Source: Burkholderiaceae bacterium
GTDB taxonomy: Bacteria > Pseudomonadota > Gammaproteobacteria > Burkholderiales > WYBJ01
Assembly (NCBI GenBank): GCA_011525945.1
Contig: WYBJ01000185.1
Location: forward strand, 1 to 34,306
Reading direction: 5' to 3'
Length of the DNA stretch: 34,306 nt
Position 1 is the stretch's first letter. Every line of letters begins with the position of its first letter. Position numbers and translations under genes: made by a program. Shown piece by piece: positions 6,515-12,835 of this stretch. The notes beneath the pieces are model-generated. The model did no database searches, was not told the DNA's origin, and was given only the letters and a program-made list of their open reading frames with translations.

Positions 6515-7435
6515 ATGTCCAATCCGAATGAACCGAGCACGCCGGCGACCGAATTGACGGCTCCCTTTCCGGCCGTTCTGTTCGCCGATATCTCGGGCAG
6601 CACCATGCTGTACGAGAAGCTCGGCGATGCGGCTGCCAAGACGCTGGTGGACGAATGCCTGGAGATCATGCGCTCGGTGACCGTGCGCCGCGGCGGACGC
6701 GTGATCAAGACCATCGGCGATGAGCTCATGTGCGTATTCCCCGACGCCGATCGCGCTTCGCTCGCGGCTACCGACATGCAGCTTGCGGTCTCCTCGTTGC
6801 CTCCCACTTCCGGCGTGAGCCGGGCCATCCGCATCGGCTTGCACGCAGGGCCCCTGATCCAGGAACGCGATGACGTGTTCGGCGACACCGTCAATACGGC
6901 GGCGCGCATGGCCTCGCTCGCCAAAGCGAGCCAGGTCATCACGACGGCGGCGACGGTCATGCTGATGTCGCCGCTGCTTCGTTCCGGCACGCGCCAAATC
7001 GCCGCGCTTGCGGTGCGGGGCAAAGGCGACGATATCGAGGTGTGCGAAGTGCTGTGGCAGGCAAGCGACGAGCTCACCATGGCGGCGTCGGTCGCTTCGC
7101 GGCCGGCCATCCTGCAACGGCTGCGGCTTACGCACGCAGCACATGAGCTGACGCTCGAGGCGGCGGGCGGGTTCGTCGTCCTTGGTCGTGATCCGAGCTG
7201 TCACATCGTTCTGGCCGGCCGCAAGGCTTCCCGCCTGCACGCCCGCATCGAATGGCGTCGCGACAAATTCTTCCTCATCGATCAGAGCACCAACGGCACC
7301 TACGTATCCTTCGTCGATGAGGCCGAGGTGGTGCTGCGACGCGAGGAAGCGATGCTGCGTGGCCGGGGGTTCATCTGTTTTGGCCACAGTATCGCCGATT
7401 CCAACGAGGAAACGGTCGAGTTCGTGATGCAGTGA
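6515..7435 (+). CDS. Class III adenylate cyclase with C-terminal FHA domain
   Basis: The 306-residue cytoplasmic protein has a class III nucleotidyl cyclase domain (about residues 17-175). Visible catalytic residues are metal-binding D25 (FADISGST) and D69 (KTIGDEL), adenine-selecting K65 and D124, and transition-state N127 and R131 (VNTAAR). The K/D pair argues for cAMP rather than cGMP. A forkhead-associated domain follows (about 215-290) with the phosphothreonine-binding pattern GR (224-225), S239-R240-x-H242 and NGT (260-262). Cyclase activity may therefore be tied to binding a phosphorylated partner. A Ser/Thr kinase operon starts about 1.3 kb beyond it on the other strand, a plausible but unproven source of that phosphothreonine. 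There are no membrane segments. Confidence 0.9.
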   Translation: MSNPNEPSTPATELTAPFPAVLFADISGSTMLYEKLGDAAAKTLVDECLEIMRSVTVRRGGRVIKTIGDELMCVFPDADRASLAATDMQLAVSSLPPTSGVSRAIRIGLHAGPLIQERDDVFGDTVNTAARMASLAKASQVITTAATVMLMSPLLRSGTRQIAALAVRGKGDDIEVCEVLWQASDELTMAASVASRPAILQRLRLTHAAHELTLEAAGGFVVLGRDPSCHIVLAGRKASRLHARIEWRRDKFFLIDQSTNGTYVSFVDEAEVVLRREEAMLRGRGFICFGHSIADSNEETVEFVMQ

Positions 7436-7489: not shown

Positions 7490-8665
7490 TCATCCGCTCC
7501 CCGGTTGCGGCTGGTCGAGCAGCTCGTTCATTCGCTGCGTAGCCTCGATGACGCGCTCGGCGAAGGGCGTAACGGCACGCGCCATCTCATCGTGCCAGGC
7601 CGAGCGGCAATCGCAGGACAGGCCCTCGAATGCCGCCGGATCGAGAACCCTGTTGTATTGGCGCAAGCGCTCGAGCACGCGCTCGTTGCAGGCGTCGCAG
7701 TTGTGCGGCACCAGGGTGGGCGCGGGGTAGAACTGGAACATACCGACCACGAGCTTGCCGAGGCCGGCGGTGCGCTGCACAACCTCGATGATCGTCCATA
7801 ACCACGGCGCCTGGTACAGGCCGCAGGCCGACAGATACTCCGAGAGCGTGTAGGCCTGTATGGTGCAGGGCTCCAGGGAAACCGTGGTGCTGCCAACGGC
7901 GAACGCGTGGCCTATCGTCGCGACCGCGTCTTGCGCTGCTTCGGCCTCCGAGTAGAACGGCGGCTTGAGCAGGACGTAAGTGCGCAGCTTGAGATACTTC
8001 GTGACGATCGCCGCTGCGCGGTCGTACTGGCGCAACGTGAACCCTTTGTTGATGCAGATGGCACGCCGGTGGTCATCGATCGTCTCCAGGCCGATCGCAA
8101 TCTCGACATGCTTGCCGGGCAGCAGGTCGCGCAGTTCGCGTACGATTTCCTCGCGCACGAATTCCGGCCGGCTCTCGAGCACAACCATGCGTATGTGAGG
8201 ATTGGCGCCGATCGCTTGCAAGATCGCGCTCCGATCGATCGCGGGTATCTCGGCATCGTTGAGGAACGAGCCGTTGTTGTAGAGATTCAGGATCGGGTAG
8301 CGTGACCAGTCGGTTGCATCGAACACCGAGAAAAACTGACGCTGATGGTCGCCCTGCGGAATCGAAAGCCGCCGCGTCTGTTTTGCCAGATGGCCGCACA
8401 TCGTACAACCGTGCGCCTTCTTCAGCGCCCAGTCGCATCCTTGCGACAGGAGATAGATGACCAGGCGCTTGCGGCAGGCGCCGTCGAAGAATTCCTCTCG
8501 CTCGTCCGCAGGGGGCGCCAGGAGCGTCGAGCCCTCGGGCAACGGAATCCGATCGTGGATTCGTGCCAGCGTCTGCGACAGCAAACGGTAGTGGGAGGCG
8601 CGTCTGCCGCTGCCGGGGGCACGGTACGCCTCTCGTCCGCCGAGTGCCGTGTCGAGGTCCGTCAT
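7490..8665 (-). CDS. Radical SAM protein resembling archaeosine-biosynthesis enzyme RaSEA (TIGR01210-like)
   Basis: This 391-residue protein has a radical SAM cluster motif of unusual spacing, C77-x9-C87-x2-C90 (GCTMCGH). A TIM-barrel-like central region follows (NLYNNGSFLN, IGLETIDD, LKPPFYSEAEA). The C-terminal part has two further cysteine groups (CDAC and CDC) that could bind Zn or a second cluster. The GC-xn-GCTMCGH motif and the Elp3-like core resemble the archaeal tRNA archaeosine enzyme RaSEA. Bacteria are not known to make archaeosine at tRNA position 15, so the substrate here is unknown. The gene is convergent with the cyclase-FHA gene and is followed upstream by the kinase operon on the same strand, separated by about 64 bases. 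Confidence 0.65.
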   Translation of the reverse strand: MTDLDTALGGREAYRAPGSGRRASHYRLLSQTLARIHDRIPLPEGSTLLAPPADEREEFFDGACRKRLVIYLLSQGCDWALKKAHGCTMCGHLAKQTRRLSIPQGDHQRQFFSVFDATDWSRYPILNLYNNGSFLNDAEIPAIDRSAILQAIGANPHIRMVVLESRPEFVREEIVRELRDLLPGKHVEIAIGLETIDDHRRAICINKGFTLRQYDRAAAIVTKYLKLRTYVLLKPPFYSEAEAAQDAVATIGHAFAVGSTTVSLEPCTIQAYTLSEYLSACGLYQAPWLWTIIEVVQRTAGLGKLVVGMFQFYPAPTLVPHNCDACNERVLERLRQYNRVLDPAAFEGLSCDCRSAWHDEMARAVTPFAERVIEATQRMNELLDQPQPGSG

Positions 8666-8729: not shown

Positions 8730-11270
8730 CTAAATCGCTGTCGGTTTGCCTGCCTTGGGCGTCGCATGACCGGGCCCGCGCGGCGCCGCCAGCAGCCCCG
8801 CCGGCGGCTGCGTTTCGAGCCGAACGCGCACCGCGTCGTCGGTGCAAGCCTGCGCGAGGCCCACATTCACGACGGCGCCAGTGCTGCCGGCGAGCAGGAA
8901 ACACACCTGACCGAGCTTGGCGTTGAGCGGTTTGAGCACGGCTTGTTCGATGATGTCGGCGGGATTGCCCTCGGCGAGCCGGAGCTGGTAGCGCCCGGGC
9001 TCGGCGAGCGGCTGGGCATCGAGCACTTGCCGGATGCCACGTAGCTCCCGCAGCAGTTGCTGGGCGGTGTGCACGCCCAGCGCACCGGCGGGCAGACCCG
9101 CAACGTGCAAGCCCACCTTCTGTTCCGGCGCGCTGAAGTGCTGCAAGAAGAAGGTCTTGGAGAACTCCTCGCCGACTAGACGCCCGATCTCGACCAGGGC
9201 CTGATCTTCCGAAGCCCAGCTCTGCGCCTTCGGCAAAGTGGTATTGAGATAGATCTCTTCTCCGCTCGCACGATCGGTCGCCTTGACCGTCCACGACGTC
9301 AGTGCAGTCTTCGAGACGATGAGCCCCGAGGCGGGCAGGTGCATCGATAGCCGTTTCACCTTGACTTCGCCCTGGATGTGAAAGTCCGCCTGTTTGGTCG
9401 CGGTGCCGGCGGGCGCATCGATCTCTGGCGCCCAGACGCGGAAGCCGAACGAGCGAATGCGCTCCTTGATGACGTTCTCGGCAAGCTGCGAGCGCGCCGG
9501 GGCGAGGGCCTCGGCGGTATCGGCGTTACGGATCGTCATCATGACCGAGATCTTCGGATCGCCGCCGTTACGTATGAATTCGATGCGTTCCTCTTTCGAC
9601 ATCTGATTGAGCGACTTCTGCACGGCGCGCATGCGTACAGCGGCGCGCGCAACGGTCGTGACCAGTCCGTCCTTGCCTACCTCGGGCGCACCCTCGGAGA
9701 TGACGCGCTTGATGAATATGCCCGGATCGGCCAGCAGCGTCTGCTCGATGGCAGCGTAGTTGCGATCGAGCGAAGCGGGCTGAACGTAAACACCCAGCGC
9801 CTTGTCGATCAGCTTGCGCTTGGCGTCTGCGCGCGCCTCGGCTTGCGCCGCCGCAGGATCGCCGTTGAAGCGCGGGTCCTTCGGATCGGCCGCACCGAGC
9901 GCACTGATCACCATAGTGCCGGGCTCGACCGGCACGTCGATCGATGGCGCGCTCGGCGGGGCTGCGGCCGGCGCAGACGCGGGTTCAACCTTCACGGTCG
10001 TGTTCCCGGCGGCAGCGGGTGCCGCTGCCGCTGCCGCTGTGGCCTGTCCGGGCTCGGCCGCCTTGTCCGTCTTGCCCGGGGTGAGCGCGAGATACGCACC
10101 CACCGCAACCGCGGCAACGACGCCTGCTGCCACCGCCGCCAAGGCGCCGCCGCCGAGCGGTTTTCTGTGGCTTGTCGCCGGTACCGGCGTCGCCGGCGAT
10201 GGGGGTGCGGGCTGCGCAGGCGAGGATAGCCGCGGCGCGGGCGATGGCGCGGTCGAAGGCGAAGCCATCGCCGCGGGTCCAGCACTCGCGGCTTGCGCCT
10301 TGCCGGTTGCCGCACGCTGCGCATCGAGAGGGCGCTCCGGAGGCGGCTGCATCCTGAGCGTCGGTTCCGACCCGGTATCGACCACGGTCGCGTCGTCTGG
10401 TCTGCCCCCCGCCGCCTGCAGCCGCGTCGCCTCGGCGTAGGCGCCCGCCACGGCGGCGCGGATCGCGGCCGCGAATTCGGCTGCACTCTGGTAGCGCTCG
10501 GCAGGCTTCTTCGCCATCGCCTTGCGCACGACCGCGTCCCAGGCGGGCGGCAGGGTAGTGTTCAACATCGAGGGCGCGAGCGGCTCCTCGGTGAGCACCT
10601 TGTACATGATGGTGGTGACGTTACCGGTGAAGGGCTTCTCGCCGGTGAGGAACTGGTACAGGATGACGCCGCAGGAAAAGAGGTCGCTCCTGTGATCGAC
10701 CGGATGACCGAGGAACTGCTCGGGCGACATGTAGGCCGGGGTGCCGAGCACTGCACCCGCCTGGGTGAGGTCCGAGCTTTCGAGCCGGGCGATGCCGAAA
10801 TCGGCCACCTTTACCGCTCCCTGCTCGAGCACGATGATGTTGGCGGGTTTGATGTCGCGATGGGTGACGCCGCGCTCGTGCGCGTGTTGCAGCGCATCCA
10901 GGATCTGGCCCATGATGCGCTCCACCGCTGGCAGCGGGAAGCGCTCGTTCGCTTCGAAAAAATCGCGCAGCTCGCGACCCTTGATGAACTCCATCGCGAT
11001 GTAGGCGATCGACTCCCCGCTGCCCGCGGGCGCGTCCTCGCCGTAGTCGTAGATCGCGACGATGTGCGGGTGATTGAGCCGTCCGGCGGCCTGGGCTTCG
11101 CGCTTGAAGCGCGCCAGGATCTCGGCCGCCTGGTCCCGGTTGAGCTGCTCGGGGCGGATGGTCTTGATCGCGACGGTGCGCTCGATCAGCGGATCGAAGC
11201 CCTCGTACACGATGCCCATCGCGCCCTTGCCGAGCTCGCGTCGGATCAGGTACTTACCCAGCTTGTCCAT
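8730..11270 (-). CDS. Membrane-anchored Ser/Thr protein kinase with FlgT-like periplasmic region
   Basis: The 846-residue protein starts with a complete Hanks-type kinase domain (residues 7-275): glycine loop GKGAMG, K36, catalytic D139 in HRDIKPAN, DFG at 157-159, and a GTPAYMSPE activation segment. A Pro/Ala-rich linker (300-370) leads to one transmembrane helix (about 376-396). The remaining 450 residues should be periplasmic. Residues 450-550 include AEARADAKRKLIDKALGVYV, resembling the N-terminal domain of FlgT/LPP20-type proteins. Residues 571-711 resemble the protein encoded two genes upstream, and 718-810 form a further unrecognised domain. It is the last gene of a three-gene set, 52 bases after the CsgG-like gene. 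The layout suggests an envelope sensor; ligand and targets are unknown. Confidence 0.85.
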   Translation of the reverse strand: MDKLGKYLIRRELGKGAMGIVYEGFDPLIERTVAIKTIRPEQLNRDQAAEILARFKREAQAAGRLNHPHIVAIYDYGEDAPAGSGESIAYIAMEFIKGRELRDFFEANERFPLPAVERIMGQILDALQHAHERGVTHRDIKPANIIVLEQGAVKVADFGIARLESSDLTQAGAVLGTPAYMSPEQFLGHPVDHRSDLFSCGVILYQFLTGEKPFTGNVTTIMYKVLTEEPLAPSMLNTTLPPAWDAVVRKAMAKKPAERYQSAAEFAAAIRAAVAGAYAEATRLQAAGGRPDDATVVDTGSEPTLRMQPPPERPLDAQRAATGKAQAASAGPAAMASPSTAPSPAPRLSSPAQPAPPSPATPVPATSHRKPLGGGALAAVAAGVVAAVAVGAYLALTPGKTDKAAEPGQATAAAAAAPAAAGNTTVKVEPASAPAAAPPSAPSIDVPVEPGTMVISALGAADPKDPRFNGDPAAAQAEARADAKRKLIDKALGVYVQPASLDRNYAAIEQTLLADPGIFIKRVISEGAPEVGKDGLVTTVARAAVRMRAVQKSLNQMSKEERIEFIRNGGDPKISVMMTIRNADTAEALAPARSQLAENVIKERIRSFGFRVWAPEIDAPAGTATKQADFHIQGEVKVKRLSMHLPASGLIVSKTALTSWTVKATDRASGEEIYLNTTLPKAQSWASEDQALVEIGRLVGEEFSKTFFLQHFSAPEQKVGLHVAGLPAGALGVHTAQQLLRELRGIRQVLDAQPLAEPGRYQLRLAEGNPADIIEQAVLKPLNAKLGQVCFLLAGSTGAVVNVGLAQACTDDAVRVRLETQPPAGLLAAPRGPGHATPKAGKPTAI

Positions 11271-11322
11271 GCGTTCGGGCGTGCGTCGAGCGTGTGCAAC
11301 GCCGGTCTCTTCGCGTTCGCAC

Positions 11323-12147
11323 CTACTCCTTGTACTTCGAGTCGATCTCGTAGACCGCAGTCTGCACCAGGCGCTGCACCATCGTGTCCAGCCCGACGCC
11401 GCCCTTGGCGCTCTGCGACACGCCCAGTACGCTGGTCGACTTCGCCCCGACCTCCATCTTGAGCTCCTGATAGCCTTGCGCGACCTGTTCGGTGGTGTTG
11501 GCGTCCATGATCTTGTAGCGCATGCCGATCAGCCACACGCCGCTCGTCTCGCCGGTCCGTACCGAGCCCACCCCGATTCCAGTGGCCACACCGCCCGATC
11601 CGCCGATCAAGCTGCCAAAGATGCCGCCCAGCGCCCGTCCGTCGAACCCTTCCTTGTTCTCAGCGATCTGCTCGGCCTTCAGGATGTCGAACTTGACGAC
11701 CCATTTCGTGGTCTTGAGCTTCCCCATCTGCATCGTTTCGCGCGCCTTGTTCGGATCGCCCAGGTTGTAGGCGAGCGAGACCTCGCGCAGCAGCGGACCC
11801 AGGTTGGAGCGCTCGAGTACTGCGAAATTGGCCTGCGAGAGCTCGAGCTCGGCGTAGTCGGCGATGTTGTTGGGCAGAAACCGCTGGGTGAACGTCGCGT
11901 TGTTGCTCTTGATCTCGCCCGGGATGACGACCAGAGCGGGCCCGCGGGTGGCCTTGTTGACGTATTCCACGGGCTTGTAGATCGCCTGGTCGGCTGCGGC
12001 ATTGGCTTTCTGCGAGGTTTCGCTGCCGGCCGTGGGTGAGGGGTTGCCGAATACCGGCTGCGCCGCGGCCCCGCCGGCGCCAAGTGTCAGCACAAGCGTG
12101 GCCGCGCCAAGCGCGCAACGTGTCGACGTGGTGGTGCGCATTTTCAT
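11323..12147 (-). CDS. CsgG/HfaB-family protein (curli-secretion-like)
   Basis: This 274-residue protein has a signal peptide (cleavage near GGAAAQ) and a CsgG-type core. ADYAELELSQANFAVLERSNLG matches the family's nucleotide-binding-like TolB/CsgG fold, and a glycine-rich stretch (GGIFGSLIGGSGGVATGIGVG) corresponds to the region that forms the pore strands in CsgG. Unlike E. coli CsgG there is no cysteine at the signal-peptide junction, so it is not an obvious lipoprotein. No curlin subunits or CsgE/F genes are nearby. The ATG has a strong Shine-Dalgarno (AAGGAGAGCCTC). It sits between the FlgT-like gene and the kinase, so its role is probably envelope sensing or complex assembly rather than curli export (inferred). 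Confidence 0.8.
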   Translation of the reverse strand: MKMRTTTSTRCALGAATLVLTLGAGGAAAQPVFGNPSPTAGSETSQKANAAADQAIYKPVEYVNKATRGPALVVIPGEIKSNNATFTQRFLPNNIADYAELELSQANFAVLERSNLGPLLREVSLAYNLGDPNKARETMQMGKLKTTKWVVKFDILKAEQIAENKEGFDGRALGGIFGSLIGGSGGVATGIGVGSVRTGETSGVWLIGMRYKIMDANTTEQVAQGYQELKMEVGAKSTSVLGVSQSAKGGVGLDTMVQRLVQTAVYEIDSKYKE

Positions 12148-12181
12148 GAGGCTCTCCTTCTTGCGGTCATGGACGGCGCAG

Positions 12182-12835
12182 TCAGCGCACGCCGGCATTG
12201 CGACAGTAATCGCCGTAGAGTTGGGCAACCACTTCGTCGGCGCGTTCGTTGAGCAGCGTCAATGCCATGCCGAGTACGTCGTGCCCGGCATAGCTTTCGT
12301 TGCTTGCACTTGCTTGCGAGATCATGCGGCCGTTGGCGCCGGTGAGGACGAAGTCGAGCCGCAGCGCGACCTGATTGACGTTGATGATGGCATTGCGCGA
12401 GATCTGCGTGTCGATCAGGCCGCGCAGGATGTACTGCGCGGCGAGCCGCCGCGATGCGCTGATGGCGGCATCGGGATCGTTGCGGAAGACGGCGTCGATC
12501 TCGGCTTGCGCGACCTGGCGGCGGATCTCCTCCGGGGTGAAGGTGCGCAAGCCCAGCGCCCGCAAGCGCTGGTTGATCGCTTCGAAATGCGGGTCGTAGG
12601 CCGCCTGCTTGGCGAGCACCGTGCCGTTGCGGTTCTCGCCGATCATCACCATGATCTTCTGATTCTTGATCTTGTCCAGGCAAGGCGTTGCGAGCTGTGC
12701 CTGAACCCGCGCCTGGCGCTCCTGGGCCTCTGTTTTACGGCTGTCGTCTCCGCTGGAGAACTTGAAGCCTTGCGCGCAGCCGATACCGGGTGCGCAAGCA
12801 AGCGCTGCGACGAGCGCGAGGCACGGCAGTTTCAT
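12182..12835 (-). CDS. Periplasmic FlgT/TolB-like protein, partner of the kinase operon
   Basis: This 217-residue secreted protein has a signal peptide ending near GIGCAQ, with a cysteine close to the cleavage site. The mature part reads KIMVMIGENRNGTVLAKQ, then INQRLRALGLRTFTPEE, then an AAQYILRG strand and a NVNQVALRLDFVLTGANG stretch. The same order of elements appears in residues 571-711 of the kinase two genes downstream, so the two regions look homologous by eye. The fold is probably the TolB-N/FlgT-middle type. Its stop lies 34 bases before the CsgG-like start, consistent with one operon. The function is unknown; it may assemble with the kinase ectodomain or the CsgG-like protein. Confidence 0.65.
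   Translation of the reverse strand: MKLPCLALVAALACAPGIGCAQGFKFSSGDDSRKTEAQERQARVQAQLATPCLDKIKNQKIMVMIGENRNGTVLAKQAAYDPHFEAINQRLRALGLRTFTPEEIRRQVAQAEIDAVFRNDPDAAISASRRLAAQYILRGLIDTQISRNAIINVNQVALRLDFVLTGANGRMISQASASNESYAGHDVLGMALTLLNERADEVVAQLYGDYCRNAGVR

Follow-up and report, generated by a model that had tools for sequence, protein, structure and literature searches.

A co-inherited module of two secreted proteins and a transmembrane Ser/Thr kinase with a FlgT-like ectodomain, a candidate for envelope signalling in a Burkholderiaceae bacterium

The locus described here lies on contig WYBJ01000185.1 of a Burkholderiaceae bacterium (assembly GCA_011525945.1), whose genome of 5.3 Mb in 339 contigs is 87% complete; the window, that is the whole stretch of 34,306 nucleotides analysed, is one complete contig. 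At positions 8730-12835, three consecutive open reading frames on the minus strand are separated by gaps of 34 and 52 bases, exactly as an earlier sequence-only reading of this DNA had given them, and all three show a strongly biased, coding-type third-position GC content of 0.82-0.86. The first (12182..12835) encodes a secreted protein of 217 amino acids (aa), the second (11323..12147) a secreted CsgG-like protein of 274 aa counted from ATG, and the third (8730..11270) a transmembrane Ser/Thr kinase of 846 aa with a FlgT-like ectodomain. Signal peptides, of type I in the CsgG-like protein, agree with the earlier statement that the first two products are secreted. A nucleotide cyclase with an FHA domain is encoded convergently to the kinase (6515..7435, plus strand). 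The kinase ectodomain and the CsgG-like gene each occur once in the genome, next to several other Hanks-type kinases. The three genes are a real module, and we regard it as fairly probable that they encode envelope-to-cytoplasm signalling, with a periplasmic assembly that is H-ring-like, neither flagellar nor curli, and wired to the kinase.

The kinase domain, predicted to be cytoplasmic (10431..11270, minus strand), is complete (PF00069 in Pfam, E 6e-50), its VAIK, HRD, DFG and SPE motifs are intact and its catalytic residues are invariant across 12 relatives. One hydrophobic segment, starting near residue 378 and preceded by HRK, is kept in 12/12 relatives, with none comparable downstream; a single transmembrane helix is accordingly predicted at about residues 375-396 (10083..10148, minus strand), with HRK at the cytoplasmic face. 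About 450 residues follow, in which the Cys pair C790/C809 is invariant in 56 sequences. This C-terminal half had been called periplasmic in the sequence-only reading, and it does look extracytoplasmic, because there is only one helix, the Cys pair is invariant (which fits an oxidising compartment), the fold is that of periplasmic proteins and a free version with a signal peptide exists in two other lineages. In PADLOC, many PD-T4-6 models match the kinase, most of them in the kinase domain only and some reaching the linker, whereas neither secreted partner matches any model; in our judgement these matches probably reflect kinase-domain similarity.

The best-known sensory heads of such kinases, the PASTA repeats, come from Gram-positives. 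NF033483, the model for PASTA kinases, gives the highest score among the NCBI families for the kinase domain (331 bits against a cut-off of 450, residues 4-317 only), and the protein shares with PknB/PrkC/StkP-type kinases the Hanks domain, a Pro/Ala-rich juxtamembrane stretch, one helix and an extracytoplasmic sensory half. It might be a cell-wall sensor on the pattern of the PASTA kinases, whose ectodomain and partners bind peptidoglycan or, in the manner of LpoB, a wall synthase, and which reports the state of the wall and not that of an outer-membrane ring. The weak LpoB similarity of the 217-aa protein and a PG_binding_1 domain on the CsgG-like protein of the distant genome G415 would agree with this. 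However, PASTA repeats are absent from the kinase, its ectodomain has a FlgT/CsgG-like fold, the secreted ring-type partners set it apart from PASTA kinases, and the peptidoglycan-binding domain was seen in that one distant relative only, so that we hold a wall sensor to be quite unlikely.

For the ectodomain, an AlphaFold model (m4e7b86725dfa, built from 56 natural relatives) was obtained with a predicted local distance difference test score (pLDDT) of 85 and a predicted TM-score (pTM) of 0.77. When its fold was compared with the PDB, chain 0 of 8z5n, an LPHT ring entry, came first (E 2.1e-7, probability 1.00), followed by HpaA, CsgG and PelC. We read this chain as FlgT because the entry is a T-bearing LPHT ring, its length of 352 compares with 356 in FlgT 3w1e, and both stand adjacent in the matches of the CsgG-like model. 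Three parts can be distinguished, all on the minus strand. Part 1 (residues 452-546, 9633..9917) has a strand-helix-strand-strand order in the model, by which it may be read as SHS2/FlgT-N/LPP20-like; an SHS2-like fold is common to FlgP, Lpp20 and FlgT (PMC12222027). Part 2 (residues 547-711, 9138..9632) appears CsgG/PelC/FlgT-M-like from model and fold match, and part 3 (residues 716-805, 8856..9125) shows a ferredoxin-like order of strands and helices and holds Cys790, followed by Cys809. The resemblance to FlgT, which had earlier been ascribed to the 217-aa protein, is therefore located in the kinase itself; no FlgT family match was found for the 217-aa protein by sequence.

The H-ring of Vibrio consists of FlgO, FlgP and FlgT (PMC7990780). 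With this flagellar structure (LPHT ring) our module has in common the FlgT-like fold of the ectodomain, the co-encoded secreted envelope partners and, in the cluster of G415, an LPP20 (FlgP-type) gene. The fold and the LPP20 neighbour, together with the presence of FlgI in 13/17 carrier genomes, could suggest that the module serves the flagellar motor, as an accessory ring or as a checkpoint. Strongly against this speaks that the module occurs without the P-ring gene FlgI in G010, G103, G247 and G415, which are 94-100% complete; in addition, no flagellar gene is conserved beside the loci. The module also differs from the H-ring in that no FlgO or FlgT sequence family matches and that the FlgT-like part is joined to a kinase. 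We consider a flagellar role very improbable, and it was rejected on the absence of FlgI from 4/17 carriers. A search with the FlgT_M family gave nothing in the 17 carriers, but its controls gave no match either.

By sequence, the CsgG-like protein is a borderline case: it reaches 20.7 bits with PF03783, just below the Pfam cut-off of 20.8, and its family profile matched neither PDB sequences nor the profiles of the two partner families. The name given to it in the sequence-only reading is carried by the fold. The AlphaFold model, with a core of pLDDT 70-86, matches CsgG (4uv3/4uv2, E about 5e-7 to 1e-6, probability 1.00), in its membrane-bound and pre-pore forms, and furthermore FlgT, HpaA and PelC. 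The strands of the model are long, and two insertions of low confidence sit where we take CsgG to have its membrane hairpins. One is a Gly/Ala-rich stretch of residues 166-200 (11548..11652, minus strand), modelled between strands 149-167 and 196-215 and presumably in the place of transmembrane hairpin 1. On this model, pore formation by the protein is possible.

The fold, the strands, the hairpin-like inserts and the lipidated copies in tandem duplicates are shared with the CsgG curli channel, in contrast to the Pfam score, the missing lipobox of the copy studied here and the pairing with a kinase. A curli function was rejected, since CsgF was found in 0/17 carriers while the E. coli control was positive. 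Similarity to CsgG and FlgT is thus no evidence for curli or flagella here, with CsgF absent from all and FlgI from four of the carriers. An export or assembly apparatus of another kind would have the CsgG-like protein as pore for some polymer, the 217-aa protein as PelC-like periplasmic ring and the kinase ectodomain as the gate or adaptor through which the cytoplasm would turn export on and off, with the signal running inside-out. This agrees with the closeness of the fold to membrane-bound CsgG, with the weak PelC similarity of the 217-aa protein and with the lipidated tandem second copies in several loci. Yet the neighbour survey, in which no fifth conserved family and no other neighbour common beyond close relatives appeared, revealed no conserved substrate, polymerase or secretion gene adjoining; CsgF is lacking, and so is a lipobox in this copy. 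We rate export as unlikely.

In Rhodoferax- and Azospira-type genomes, orphan or tandem second copies of the CsgG-like gene do encode a lipobox. Such copies, which stand by themselves or are paired with one that lacks the lipobox, were noted at loci L062, L067, L077, L078 and L115, with tandem pairs at L070, L073, L090, L098 and L105. Lipidated and non-lipidated copies may possibly build mixed rings.

In the 217-aa protein, residues Cys52 and Cys211 are invariant, distant and fused versions included. The best sequence match in the PDB is PelC 5t10 (E 0.04, not significant), and Pfam LpoB gives E 0.026 here and 0.0016 at locus L154, likewise not significant. Profile comparison also relates it, weakly, to the FlgT-M-like part of the ectodomain (P 0.004, probability 8.5%). 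From its sequence, the protein may weakly be called PelC/LpoB/TolB-N-like, and PelC also matches the ectodomain fold. Unlike proteins of that group, it has no lipid anchor, carries the invariant Cys pair and has no Pel or penicillin-binding-protein neighbours.

The FHA-cyclase, by its residues a class III nucleotide cyclase, is usually part of the module, as its fourth gene in most lineages. In nine sequences, the cyclase residues D25 and D69 (the metal Asp pair), K65, N127 and R131 are invariant, as are G224-R225, S239-R240-H242 and N260-G261 of the FHA domain, which form the phospho-binding GR, SRxH and NG motifs. The gene adjoins the kinase in 13/13 relatives of the order, two of them on contigs without the whole region, and in 33/50 named loci with enough sequence. 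Judged from these residues, the protein would be the natural reader of the phospho-signal made by the kinase. Between kinase and cyclase, the window also contains a radical-SAM gene (7490-8665, minus strand), which scores 229 bits against a cut-off of 212 with RaSEA (TIGR01210), an archaeosine-biosynthesis family, here in a bacterial genome; in relatives of the same genus, no counterpart was seen at this place.

Co-inheritance carries the case for the module. Of 300 genomes from the order, the same 16 carry both the CsgG-like and the 217-aa family, and 14 of these 16 also carry the ectodomain. Such identical profiles would arise by chance with a probability of about 1e-26 under independence of the genomes, which does not hold. 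The carriers belong to 11 of 134 genera and to several families that also contain non-carriers, so the distribution is patchy yet the profile identical. Co-occurrence of the three families in this order, for which the sequence-only reading had proposed to search, is borne out, and a lack of co-conservation in relatives was not observed. In 11 relatives with the whole region on a contig, the three genes stand together and the FHA-cyclase lies opposite beside the kinase; locus L031 is rearranged, with the genes still adjacent. The order 217-aa gene, CsgG-like gene, kinase and convergent FHA-cyclase is kept at 41-90% identity, while the outer neighbours are lost.

A wider scan gave 80 named loci, from Ramlibacter, Rhodoferax, Caenimonas, Azospira, Methyloversatilis and many bins. 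The scan was seeded with the CsgG-like family, so that locus counts are biased toward loci having that gene; the genome-wide counts are those from the 300 genomes. The 217-aa gene lies directly upstream of the CsgG-like gene in 70/76 loci with upstream room, and the kinase directly downstream in 61/72 with downstream room. In 34 loci, the divergence of all module parts is correlated (r 0.75-0.91, uncorrected for the species tree); common descent by itself would produce such a correlation too. The module is rare when the whole class and phylum are considered. The several other Hanks-type kinases in this genome might suggest that this one, too, is an ordinary kinase to which its neighbours are unrelated, but this reading is refuted by the co-inheritance, the conserved order, the identical profiles and the split and joined forms described below; we see practically no chance for it.

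In G415, a genome of another order with 37% GC, a gene between those for the 217-aa and the CsgG-like protein encodes the ectodomain by itself, headed by a signal peptide. The CsgG-like protein is there a lipobox lipoprotein carrying the PG_binding_1 domain, and the cluster also comprises the LPP20 gene, a TPR lipoprotein and a divergent transmembrane kinase without such an ectodomain. A further lineage with a free secreted ectodomain is represented by G768. Parts that one lineage keeps apart and another fuses are classic evidence of joint function. The kinase domain of the G415 kinase scores 401 bits in our kinase model, against 323 for the best paralogue of its own genome; in the kinase tree, it forms an unresolved group with one own-genome paralogue and the joined kinases (85/91), which supports direct descent without proving it. 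The LPP20-domain protein at L154:10470-11998, in the split-ectodomain cluster, is secreted and apparently has two repeats, and this cluster encodes a further secreted protein. Weak ectodomain-like fragments follow the kinase ectodomain at L105:12196-12873, and L163:6857-15001 (G734) holds secreted proteins and lipoproteins, two weakly ectodomain-like (FlgT-N-type) proteins and TPR lipoproteins; this cluster is possibly a distant relative of such rings.

Other carriers have exchanged the kinase. In G020, G186 and the Rhodocyclaceae loci L070 and L112, no such kinase is present; the 217-aa domain forms the C-terminus of a larger protein and is followed by one or two CsgG-like genes. In G020 and G186 this larger secreted protein belongs to the caspase family (Peptidase_C14, E about 1e-35), and the layout of L070 and L112 is alike. 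The fusions lie at L152:9546-11315 and L153:8790-11228 (both minus strand, both of the Peptidase_C14 caspase family), L070:6390-7928 and L112:2770-4314, in each case followed by CsgG-like genes; a second caspase-family gene adjoins the fusion of L152. At L108:8016-10694, the gene immediately after a CsgG-like one encodes a nucleotide cyclase with a CHASE2 domain. Such exchanges point to one shared periplasmic head whose outputs differ.

How such a head might work can be outlined as follows. The parts list of FlgT-like and CsgG/PelC-like proteins, with LPP20 added in G415, the four carriers without FlgI and the lack of CsgF favour an H-ring-like assembly of its own. The CsgG-like and the 217-aa protein would reside either at the outer membrane or within the periplasm and probably form a ring, like their structural relatives CsgG, PelC and FlgT. 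The kinase would be anchored in the inner membrane, and its FlgT-like ectodomain, held on the Pro/Ala-rich tether, would dock onto this ring. Assembly or disturbance of the ring could then cluster or re-orient the ectodomains and so switch the kinase, and the FHA domain of the adjacent cyclase might recognise phospho-Thr made by the kinase, so that the state of the envelope would be coupled to a cyclic nucleotide. That an envelope complex is sensed by the kinase ectodomain, as the sequence-only reading had supposed, is the best explanation we have and agrees with the co-conservation; what changes is that the FlgT-like part is the ectodomain itself and that a fourth gene, the FHA-cyclase, usually belongs to the set.

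Several observations weigh against this signalling scheme. Contact between the module proteins is what we infer, and so are the ring itself, the stimulus, phosphorylation of a target and the control of the cyclase. The likeness to FlgT is one of fold only: Pfam gave no match, FlgT included, in the C-terminal half of the kinase, and the PDB, searched with the sequence profile of the ectodomain, yielded matches at chance level only. Whole-chain TM-scores of its fold matches are low (0.27-0.31) and the root-mean-square deviations high, and therefore the claim on FlgT concerns the types of domains, not their placement. The CsgG-like model reaches an overall pLDDT of only 64, and this copy carries no lipid anchor, its signal ending in GGAAAQPVFGN without a lipobox Cys. 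In a few loci the CsgG-like gene stands alone, mostly as a lipidated second copy. Finally, the cyclase is not beside the kinase in 17/50 loci with enough sequence, so the kinase must have other targets and the cyclase is not its sole one.

In the open library searched, no paper on this composition was found, which is not proof of absence; the sequence-only reading, too, knew of no such system. Sensory ectodomains as such are known from transmembrane Ser/Thr kinases. The one found here is, as far as we can tell, undescribed, and so are the secreted proteins that accompany it and the exchange for a caspase. That the periplasmic head makes up a new class is a real possibility. A broader view, which we put forward tentatively and hold to be possible rather than probable, is that of a patchily widespread and undescribed class of envelope surveillance, in which an assembly of CsgG/FlgT/PelC type, independent of flagella and curli, serves as interchangeable sensor head whose output differs between lineages: the transmembrane kinase with the FHA-cyclase, a secreted protease of caspase type to which the 217-aa domain is fused, or a cyclase with CHASE2 encoded next to the CsgG-like protein.

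To our knowledge, envelope sensing by transmembrane Ser/Thr kinases of Gram-negative bacteria is a largely open field. Here a kinase bears a flagellar-ring fold, and inherited along with it are two secreted proteins of ring type and, in many cases, a phospho-reading cyclase; this offers a concrete and testable chain from sensor to output. It suggests that ring parts of FlgT, FlgP and CsgG type have uses beyond flagella and curli. The fusion of the 217-aa domain to a caspase points to a second output for the same periplasmic parts. In many beta-proteobacteria, this gene set looks like an undescribed route by which the state of the outer envelope is reported to the cell interior.

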